From the NCBI RefSeq assembly GCF_000633935.1, contig NZ_KK214996.1:637880-701879 (forward strand): 64,000 nucleotides of DNA, in the 5' to 3' direction. A model generated the notes under the pieces. That model was given only the letters and a program-made list of their open reading frames with translations, did not search any database and was not told the DNA's origin. A program made the translations under genes and the position numbers. Positions within the stretch are counted from its first letter, which is position 1. Each line of letters begins with the position of its first letter. This stretch comes from Ectothiorhodospira haloalkaliphila ATCC 51935. GTDB taxonomy: Bacteria > Pseudomonadota > Gammaproteobacteria > Ectothiorhodospirales > Ectothiorhodospiraceae. This document shows positions 25,871 to 38,391 of this stretch, piece after piece.

Positions 25871-26325
25871 CCAGAAGCCTCCGGGCGGGTGAAGCCCTCC
25901 GGGGGTGTTCACCGCATGAATGCGGTGGCCAAGCCTACAAGGATGTATTCACGGCGTCCCCCGGAGGGATTTACCCACCCACAGGCCGCCACCAAACCCA
26001 CGGAGGGCACCCTGCGGCGAGCACACAAGCCAGAAGCCTCCGGGCGGGTGAAGCCCTCCGGGGGTGTTCACCGCATGGATGCGGTGGCCAAGCCTACAAG
26101 GACGTATTCACGGCGCCCCCCGGAGGGATTTACCCACCCGCAGGCCGCCACCGAACCCACGGAGGGCACCCTGCGGAGAGCACACAAGCCAGAAGCCTCC
26201 GGGCGGGTGAAGCCCTCCGGGGGTGTTCACCGCATGGATGCGGTGGCCAAGCCTACAAGGACGTATTCACGGCGTCCCCCGGAGGGATTTACCCACCCGG
26301 AGGCCACCACCGAACCCAAGGAAGG
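25871..26325. repeat. Tandem 159-bp repeat, three copies
   Basis: Units begin CCAGAAGCCTCCGGGCGGGT at 25871, 26030 and 26189, exactly 159 bp apart; the third diverges after about 26300. Each unit has a conserved core (25904-25968 in copy 1) with an internal CACCGCAT-GCGGTG hairpin and GTATTCACGGCG. The core lies between inverted flanks, CCCTCCGGGG and CCCCGGAGGG, extending to about 22 imperfect pairs. The same core recurs at 37829-37890. The array fills most of the 587-bp gap between convergent mutM and the ferredoxin gene. The period is a multiple of three, so it leaves a long but meaningless open frame. Nothing else is seen in the gap besides the ferredoxin terminator. Confidence 0.93.
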
Positions 26326-29275: not shown

Positions 29276-30418
29276 ATGGCTGTCAAACTCAACGTCGATA
29301 AGCCCGAAACACCCCCTGTGGGAGCGGCCCTCGGCCGCGAAGTGTTTCCGGATTGCACCGCCCCGGCCGAGCGCGGCCTTCGCGGCCAAGGGCCGCTCCC
29401 ACAAAAACACCCACAGGACCGGGCCCGACTCTGGGGACTGACCGGCCTGTTGCTGGCCATCCTCCTGCTCAGCGGCTGCGCCACCCCTCTGCAGACCCGC
29501 GACCTGCTGCGCGAACCACCCGACGAACTCCCCCGACAGGTGGAACTGGACCAGACCCCCTTCCACCCCCAGGAACTCTATCAATGCGGACCGGCCGCCC
29601 TGGCCACCGTACTGGGCGCCCGCGGCCTGCTGGTGCACCCCGACGACCTGGTGGATGAAGTCTACGTCCCCGAACGCCAGGGCAGCCTGCAGACCGAAAT
29701 GCTGGCCGCCGCCAGGGCCCGCGGACTCGTGGCCTACGTCATCGAACCCCGCATGGAAACGCTCCTCAAGGAAGTGGCCGCAGGACACCCGGTGCTCGTC
29801 TTCCAGAACCTGGGCCTCAACGCCTTCCCCTACTGGCATTACGCCGTGGTGATCGGATTCGATCTGGACCAGGAAGAGATCATCCTGCGATCGGGCACTA
29901 TCCATCGCCACGTCACCCGCATGCCCGTCTTCGAACGCACCTGGCGTCGCGGCGACTACTGGGCCTTCGTCGTCCAGCCCCCCGGCCAACTCCCCGCCAC
30001 TGCCCAGCCCCTGCGCTGGCTGCGCGCCGCCAACGCCCTGGAAGCCACCGGCCAGCTCACCACCGCCGCCACGGCCTACCGGACCGCCACCCAACAGTGG
30101 CCCGACCACCCCGTGGCCTGGATCGGCCTGGGCAACACCCTGTACGCCCTCGAGGACCACAACGGCGCCGAGCAGGCCTTCCGACAACTCATCCAGAGAA
30201 ATCCCGAGGCCCACGCCGCCTGGAACAACCTGGCCCACGTCCTCCACGCCCGCGGCTGCAACACCCAGGCCCTCGAGGCCGTCACCTGCGCACTGCGAAT
30301 GGCCCCCAACGAGTCCTTCTACCAGCGCACCCTGGAAACCGTGACCAGATCGCCCGACGCCCAGCCCCAGGACAACACCTGCCTCCCCCTTCTCTGCCCC
30401 ACCGAAGCCCACCAATAG
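29276..30418 (+). CDS. PA2778-family C39-like cysteine peptidase lipoprotein with TPRs
   Basis: A 380-residue protein. A lipoprotein signal LTGLLLAILLLSGC ends in a lipobox Cys near residue 68. Next is a C39-like papain-fold domain with the nucleophile segment LYQCGPAALATVLGARGL and a probable His in YWHYAVVIGFDL, then about three C-terminal TPR-like repeats (AWIGLGNTLYALEDHNGAEQ). The first roughly 50 residues come from sequence that includes two REP units, so the annotated ATG may not be the real start, but no other ATG, GTG or TTG in frame precedes the signal. It pairs with the PA2779-type gene just upstream. Substrate unknown. Confidence 0.8.
   Translation: MAVKLNVDKPETPPVGAALGREVFPDCTAPAERGLRGQGPLPQKHPQDRARLWGLTGLLLAILLLSGCATPLQTRDLLREPPDELPRQVELDQTPFHPQELYQCGPAALATVLGARGLLVHPDDLVDEVYVPERQGSLQTEMLAAARARGLVAYVIEPRMETLLKEVAAGHPVLVFQNLGLNAFPYWHYAVVIGFDLDQEEIILRSGTIHRHVTRMPVFERTWRRGDYWAFVVQPPGQLPATAQPLRWLRAANALEATGQLTTAATAYRTATQQWPDHPVAWIGLGNTLYALEDHNGAEQAFRQLIQRNPEAHAAWNNLAHVLHARGCNTQALEAVTCALRMAPNESFYQRTLETVTRSPDAQPQDNTCLPLLCPTEAHQ
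29318..29402. repeat. Inverted pair of REP units inside a reading frame
   Basis: A 24-bp unit beginning GTGGGAGCGGCC at 29318-29341 is matched by an inverted copy at 29379-29402 with one mismatch (BIME-like). Both lie between the ATG and the lipoprotein signal of the peptidase gene and are translated in frame. Confidence 0.85.
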
Positions 30419-37201: not shown

Positions 37202-37723
37202 ATGTGGGATTTCTTTCAGACCGTCAGGCACCGTCACTCCATCCGCAGCTACCAGCCGGACATGCCGGTGGAGCCGGAAAAGCTGCATGCCATCCTGGAG
37301 ACCGCCGTCACAGGGCCATCCGCAGGGGATCTGCAGTCCTACCGGATCATCTGTATCGAGGATGCCGCCCTGCGCCAGTCGTTGGTGGGCGCCGCCCATG
37401 ATCAGGCCTTCATCGCCCAGGCGCCCGTATGCCTGGTGTTCTGCACGGATGCGGCCCGGGCGGAGCAGCAGTACGGTGAGCGGGGGCGGGATCTGTTCGC
37501 GCTGCAGGATGCCACCATCGCTGCCGCGTATGCGCAACTGGCTGTCGTGGCGGCCGGCATGGGCTCCACCTGGGTGGGCTTTTTCGACGAGGGTGCGGTG
37601 ATCCGGGCACTGGATCTGGAGCCGGGTCTGCGTCCGGTGGCGCTGATGTGCGTGGGGTATCCGGCGGAGATCCCGGAGGCCTCCCATCGGCGGCGTCTTG
37701 ATGAGGTGGTCACCTACCGGTAG
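37202..37723 (+). CDS. Nitroreductase family FMN protein
   Basis: A 173-residue flavoprotein with the N-terminal VRHRHSIRSYQPDMP pattern that contacts FMN, AVTGPSAGDLQSYR, and a GMGSTWVGFFDEGAV segment. Such proteins use NAD(P)H to reduce nitro groups, quinones or flavins; the natural substrate is unknown. GAGGAG precedes the ATG by 9 bases. It follows bamD by 48 bp and could share its transcript. Confidence 0.9.
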   Translation: MWDFFQTVRHRHSIRSYQPDMPVEPEKLHAILETAVTGPSAGDLQSYRIICIEDAALRQSLVGAAHDQAFIAQAPVCLVFCTDAARAEQQYGERGRDLFALQDATIAAAYAQLAVVAAGMGSTWVGFFDEGAVIRALDLEPGLRPVALMCVGYPAEIPEASHRRRLDEVVTYR

Positions 37724-37807
37724 CCGGCCAAGAAAGGGGACAGTCCCCTCTGTCCCGGCCCCTTACCGTCGGAGGTTTCCTTGGCCGGGGGCTTTGTGAC
37801 CGGTCCA

Positions 37808-37911
37808 AGCCGGGGGGCAGTGTTGTCCGCGGGACGCCGTGAATACGTTCCTGTAGGCTTGACCACCGCATCCATGCGGTGAACACCCGCCGACAACACT
37901 GCCCCCCGGCT
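37808..37911. repeat. Dispersed repeat core inside a 26-bp palindrome
   Basis: AGCCGGGGGGCAGTGTTGTC (37808-37827) is perfectly inverted at 37892-37911. The stem extends inward over GCGGG with one mismatch. Inside is a reverse-orientation copy of the core seen in the 25.9-kb array (CGCCGTGAATACG, CCTACA-like TGTAGGCTTG, CACCGCATCCATGCGGTG). The rest of the 266-bp gap between the convergent nitroreductase and glnB genes shows no gene. Confidence 0.88.
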
Positions 37912-37989
37912 CGCACCTGCATCGGGGTGGGGACCGTTCCTTCCTTCTTGCTGCTTCCTTACTGCTTCCCTCTTGCTCGATTGCTCCCC

Positions 37990-38391
<402 letters not shown>

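Follow-up and report, generated by a model that had tools for sequence, protein, structure and literature searches.

Element copies in the window and in the host genome

In the window (the whole stretch of 64,000 nucleotides of Ectothiorhodospira haloalkaliphila ATCC 51935 that we analyzed), a repeat core lies on the reverse strand at 37.8 kb, enclosed by a long palindrome and flanked by a nitroreductase-like gene and a PII gene. Further copies lie near 25.9 kb. The features are listed below, where R1 denotes the model that we built in the present analysis.

37805..37914, minus strand (sense strand, with the GGA loops): whole stem-core-stem element; R1, 95.4 bits, E 5e-23
37892..37914, minus strand: outer stem, 5′ arm in the sense orientation; inverted-arm search and fold
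37805..37827, minus strand: outer stem, 3′ arm in the sense orientation; inverted-arm search and fold
37860..37885, minus strand: hairpin A, with the loop CATGGATG that corresponds to CANGGANG, the CsrA/RsmA consensus; fold, PMC6849547
37836..37858, minus strand: hairpin B, with the 5-nt bulge UUCAC and the loop CAGGAACG, which is CANGGANG with one change; covariation and fold
25871..25991, plus strand: tandem copy 1, with the hairpin A loop CATGAATG, GGA lost; repeat search and R1
26030..26150, plus strand: tandem copy 2, sharing 97% identity with copy 1; repeat search and R1, start-to-start spacing 159
26189..26310, plus strand: tandem copy 3; degenerate core pattern and R1
37202-37723, plus strand: nitroreductase-like gene, one neighbor of the 37.8-kb element
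37990-38328, minus strand: PII (glnB/glnK-like) gene, its other neighbor

The original prediction placed the core in reverse orientation inside a palindrome at 37.8 kb, and our analysis bore this out. The two arms (37802-37833 and 37886-37917) are 32 nt each, 91% complementary and separated by 52 nt, and they contain the perfect 20-mer AGCCGGGGGGCAGTGTTGTC. The fold of the strand carrying this copy has z = -9.3 against dinucleotide shuffles. Its core matches those at 25.9 kb over 56 nt, with 1 mismatch to the degenerate pattern where the chance expectation is 0, and a single G-G mismatch occupies the place in the outer stem where other copies have a GNA/GNA loop. The stem around the core at 25.9 kb has the predicted sequence CCCTCCGGGG and continues outward (GCCTCCGGGCGGGTGAAGCCC); however, what had been taken for a single copy is a set of three in tandem, 159 bp apart. 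The window total is hence four copies, one at 37.8 kb (minus) and three at 25.9-26.3 kb. The array at 25871-26310 consists of three 159-bp units, and the relative G190 has two.

Upon collecting copies from the host genome (3.45 Mb, 4 contigs), we found about 40, including the 4 in the window. All 38 of the copies that were read share one fold design and have inverted flanks. The expectation that the outer stem changes in sequence while its pairing is kept held in each of these 38 and also across genera. In the sense orientation, the layout runs from the long variable outer stem through a short GGG/CCC helix to hairpin A (loop CANGGANG), a joint ending in A, hairpin B with its 5-nt bulge (GCC NNC ANGGAN GNN UUYAC GGC), and finally GU. 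The core forms a three-way junction whose two hairpins have CANGGANG loops, and the outer stem of many own copies is interrupted by a purine-rich, symmetric 3x3 loop (GNA/GNA). Some copies, including one in the window, are without GGA in one of the loops.

Covariation and the favored strand

To assess covariation, we used 69 diverse gammaproteobacterial copies, from which a few broken or chimeric copies had been excluded beforehand. Standard pairs made up 90.8% of the paired cells in this set, and double-sided changes numbered 688 compared with 244 in shuffles. The covariation score was 0.687, against 0.181 for shuffled alignments and ≤0.15 for slid versions of the structure, in which the paired share dropped to 37-47%. 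The small hairpins covaried as well, with near-invariant loops. Between orthologous copies in related species (20 comparisons), 31 pairs were compensated by a double change, 14 had a one-sided change that was tolerated, and 13 were broken, 9 of the latter being due to one misregistered comparison. At one orthologous locus where four species have a single copy each, the stem is largely paired, with some pairs compensated and some broken. The stems had also seemed to change at more than the neutral rate, but we abandoned this idea since the immediate flanks differ more between orthologues.

The mismatches of the outer stem, read on the strand with the GGA loops, are strongly asymmetric. We observed GU/UG 146 times versus AC/CA 57 times, and purine-purine mismatches 244 times versus 50 for pyrimidine-pyrimidine (binomial p 3e-10, assuming independent copies). 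The G-A and A-G mismatches cluster at stem positions 5-8, where many own copies have the 3x3 loop of GNA/GNA type. This wobble and purine bias identifies the strand with the GGA loops as the structured one; from a double-stranded cruciform, no bias of this kind is expected. That the element is a structured single strand bearing GGA loops is well supported. RNA is the simplest reading of the strand bias, and a single-stranded DNA substrate would also fit. The original prediction had offered an RNA in need of its outer stem as one of two possibilities, and it is this one that the cross-genus covariation, the compensation between orthologues and the strand-specific mismatches favor.

Probable relation to TwoAYGGAY and plausible relation to CsrA/RsmA ligands

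Searches against Rfam, with the window at the gathering threshold and copy L022 at E up to 10, returned no informative family, RF01731 included, and the core strings of the element had no match in the literature. RF01731 is TwoAYGGAY, a candidate RNA since 2010 whose role is unexplained (Weinberg et al. 2010, PMC2864571); CsrA binding has been proposed for it, and tandem G-A pairs in a stem are given as one of its features (PMC4333381). This model gave no match in the host genome at E up to 10. Across 185 genomes of the class it matches others, likewise multi-copy and often in inverted pairs. As with TwoAYGGAY, the element has two adjacent hairpins with A-N-GGA-N loops, enclosed by an external stem of low sequence conservation; AG separates the hairpins and CGUC follows the second one, and the element occurs in multiple copies in Gammaproteobacteria, often as inverted pairs. 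In contrast to TwoAYGGAY, its core is GC-rich and its second hairpin, a long plain stem in the known family, is short and bulged, with an invariant GCC/GGC base and the 5-nt UUYAC bulge. Two bridge sequences scored with both models: L165 (RF01731 44.6 bits, over the cut-off; R1 57.9 bits, E 5.5e-13) and L169 (RF01731 43.8 bits, over the cut-off; R1 62.4 bits, E 3.4e-14). From the shared plan and these bridges, we read the element as a GC-rich TwoAYGGAY variant. The two likely form one superfamily, in which the element would be an unannotated, GC-rich branch beyond the reach of the Rfam model.

The loops themselves resemble known protein-binding sites. Published CsrA/RsmA sites include CANGGANG and the SELEX consensus RUACARGGAUGU, and the motif CATGGATG has been functionally verified (PMC6849547). 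The common loop of hairpin A is CATGGATG, identical to that motif. In total, 149 of 185 copies have CANGGANG in the hairpin A loop and a further 24 have A(N)GGA; hairpin A lies outside the search pattern, so that these counts are an independent test, while those for hairpin B are inflated by the pattern. Both hairpins present the A/UCANGGANGU/A arrangement of CsrA-type sites in a hairpin loop, with two sites per dimer, and the outer A/U and U/A flanks of such sites are only partly matched. In CsrB/CsrC, RsmX/Y/Z and RsmU, too, hairpin loops with GGA are the expected binding sites of CsrA/RsmA (PMC7694677). However, those RNAs have sRNA genes dedicated to them and contain several GGA motifs, whereas the element is dispersed as a repeat and has precisely two, on a long stem. 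We found csrA in 67 of the 72 genomes that bear the element and in 245 of the 297 that do not (Fisher p 0.03), a co-occurrence that is compatible with a CsrA link but says little because csrA is near universal across the class. Judged by its loops, the element is a plausible candidate ligand of CsrA/RsmA.

Dispersal, rival explanations and proposed role

The element was found in 72 of 369 sampled gammaproteobacterial genomes and 63 of 271 genera, and copy number within the genus of the host is erratic, from 40 down to 1. Stenotrophomonas, Arenimonas, Lysobacter, Sedimenticola, Thioalkalivibrio and Idiomarina are some of the genera among the matches listed for the degenerate core pattern, and an Ectothiorhodospira shaposhnikovii record bears the element as well. 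Phages and plasmids gave no element match. Copies are intergenic, in 54 convergent, 45 tandem sense, 38 tandem antisense and 12 divergent gaps, with genes called by a simple codon model. A plain sense-oriented 3′-UTR role is disfavored, since the tandem pairs (45 same, 38 opposite) show no clear bias. An intrinsic terminator, in which a T run comes after a GC hairpin, was rejected as well, TTTT directly following the sense stem in only 2 of 185 copies. Between the inverted copy pairs that we examined there are ordinary genes and no transposase, which disfavors an autonomous mobile element there. One such pair encloses a ccdB-like toxin ORF; these are the only two copies of their genome (G106; L203, ~2.0 and ~3.6 kb).

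Several copies are parts of larger repeats. Seven of the ~40 own copies are enclosed by two inverted REPs, whose spacing is nearly constant, and the homology of these composites ends at the outer REP ends; about 10 more have one REP nearby. Most own copies, including those in the window, are not flanked by two inverted REPs. An inverted REP doublet without the element (REPIN-like) occurs in the window at 29321-29399, with further REPs at 2618 and 32450. A RAYT-like Y1_Tnp protein of 160 aa is encoded among seven identical REPs of sequence GGAGCGGGCCTTGCCCGCGAA (L208:2726-3208; contig C4 of the host genome near 267.5 kb). REPINs and BIMEs are REP doublets associated with RAYT (PMC3116915), and the element is like them in that some copies are enclosed by two inverted REPs whose outer ends bound the homology. 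It differs in its interior, a structured element of ~110 nt that is widely distributed in its own right, also where the REP class is absent. G185 and G191 have ~31 elements, while these REPs number 2 and 0 there; REPs are therefore dispensable and cannot be the sole vehicle. Comparison of L037 in the host genome with L260 in G190 revealed a REP composite with its interior inverted.

In a rival explanation, the element would be a MITE- or REPIN-like DNA hairpin, mobile but non-autonomous, whose conserved loops, bulge and stem serve as a one-strand ssDNA substrate, for instance of a REP-associated tyrosine transposase, without involvement of CsrA. Its dispersed, multi-copy and patchy occurrence, the exact coincidence of composite ends with inverted REPs, the Y1_Tnp protein among seven REPs, the absence of whole composites from a relative, and the lack of a clear sense bias between tandem genes would all fit. 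Nonetheless, this account does not predict ~31 copies in genomes almost free of REPs, the lack of a transposase between the inverted pairs examined, a largely paired stem kept in single orthologous copies of four species, or loops that equal a protein-binding RNA consensus, and we hold it to be possible at less than even weight. By genome comparison, a mobility component as such is real, the repeat being dispersed and turning over.

We consider it improbable that the complementarity of the arms is kept by DNA-level template switching in the hairpin instead of by selection on RNA. Matched indels and clustered compensated changes between orthologues (L029, L005 and L017) would suit this mechanism. 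Template switching alone, however, leaves the GNA/GNA-type loop and the strand bias of the GU and purine mismatches unexpected, and the small hairpins with their near-invariant loops covary too.

Empty sites in G190 bear on the other possibility in the original prediction, a small mobile element having palindromes, for example terminators, as its target. At L013 and L022, ~255 and ~237 nt are missing, roughly the whole composite, with no matching palindrome, and at L007 the element is missing with no palindrome left. The bare palindrome expected at an empty site was found at L019 alone, where the core is absent, and it may represent a deletion because four other G190 loci (L018, L020, L032 and L035) are internal-deletion remnants. 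The glnK locus of G190 lacks the element and is rearranged, so it is unclean as an empty site. Own-copy homology runs 30-50 nt past the outer stem. That the outer stem is an integral part of the element, and not a targeted palindrome, is well supported by these comparisons. Palindrome targeting is accordingly mostly unsupported and unlikely, and insertion into host terminators or other existing palindromes is the least probable of the explanations: the preference for convergent over divergent gaps (54 versus 12) and L019 speak for it, whereas the homology beyond the stem, the lack of a palindrome at three of four clear empty sites, the deletion remnants and the near absence of T runs speak against it.

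On balance, we think it somewhat probable that the element is a dispersed repeat encoding a structured RNA with twin loops for CsrA/RsmA, a GC-rich variant of TwoAYGGAY. The long outer stem, free in sequence, would carry a three-way junction with two CANGGANG loops. Copies would be read through in transcripts, mainly near gene 3′ ends, and the two loops would hold one CsrA/RsmA dimer, which when bound would either alter transcript fate or titrate CsrA. The copies would spread as parts of larger repeats, and those within REP doublets in the host genome could be moved by a REP-associated transposase. Counting against this reading are the erratic copy number (40 to 1), unlike that of a dedicated regulator, the lack of a clear tandem sense bias together with the REP composite flipped in a relative, the loss of GGA from one loop in some copies, and the failure of RF01731 to match the host genome. 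More speculatively, these repeats might be a large class, so far unrecognized, of dispersed CsrA/RsmA docking sites across Gammaproteobacteria. Their transcribed copies, at tens per genome, might act together as a distributed sponge or as local stabilizers of transcripts, with copy number tuning the Csr/Rsm network and being altered, among other ways, by REP transposition. Our analysis suggests that relatives of TwoAYGGAY are far commoner than the RF01731 model shows and that they behave as genomic repeats with paired CsrA-type loops. If CsrA/RsmA does bind them, a global regulator would, in many bacteria, receive a hidden input from dispersed repeats.

Lastly, three Stenotrophomonas copies (L050, L097 and L136) have the same foreign palindrome, GCCGTGTGCGCAGGAC.GCGCACACG, in place of hairpin A.
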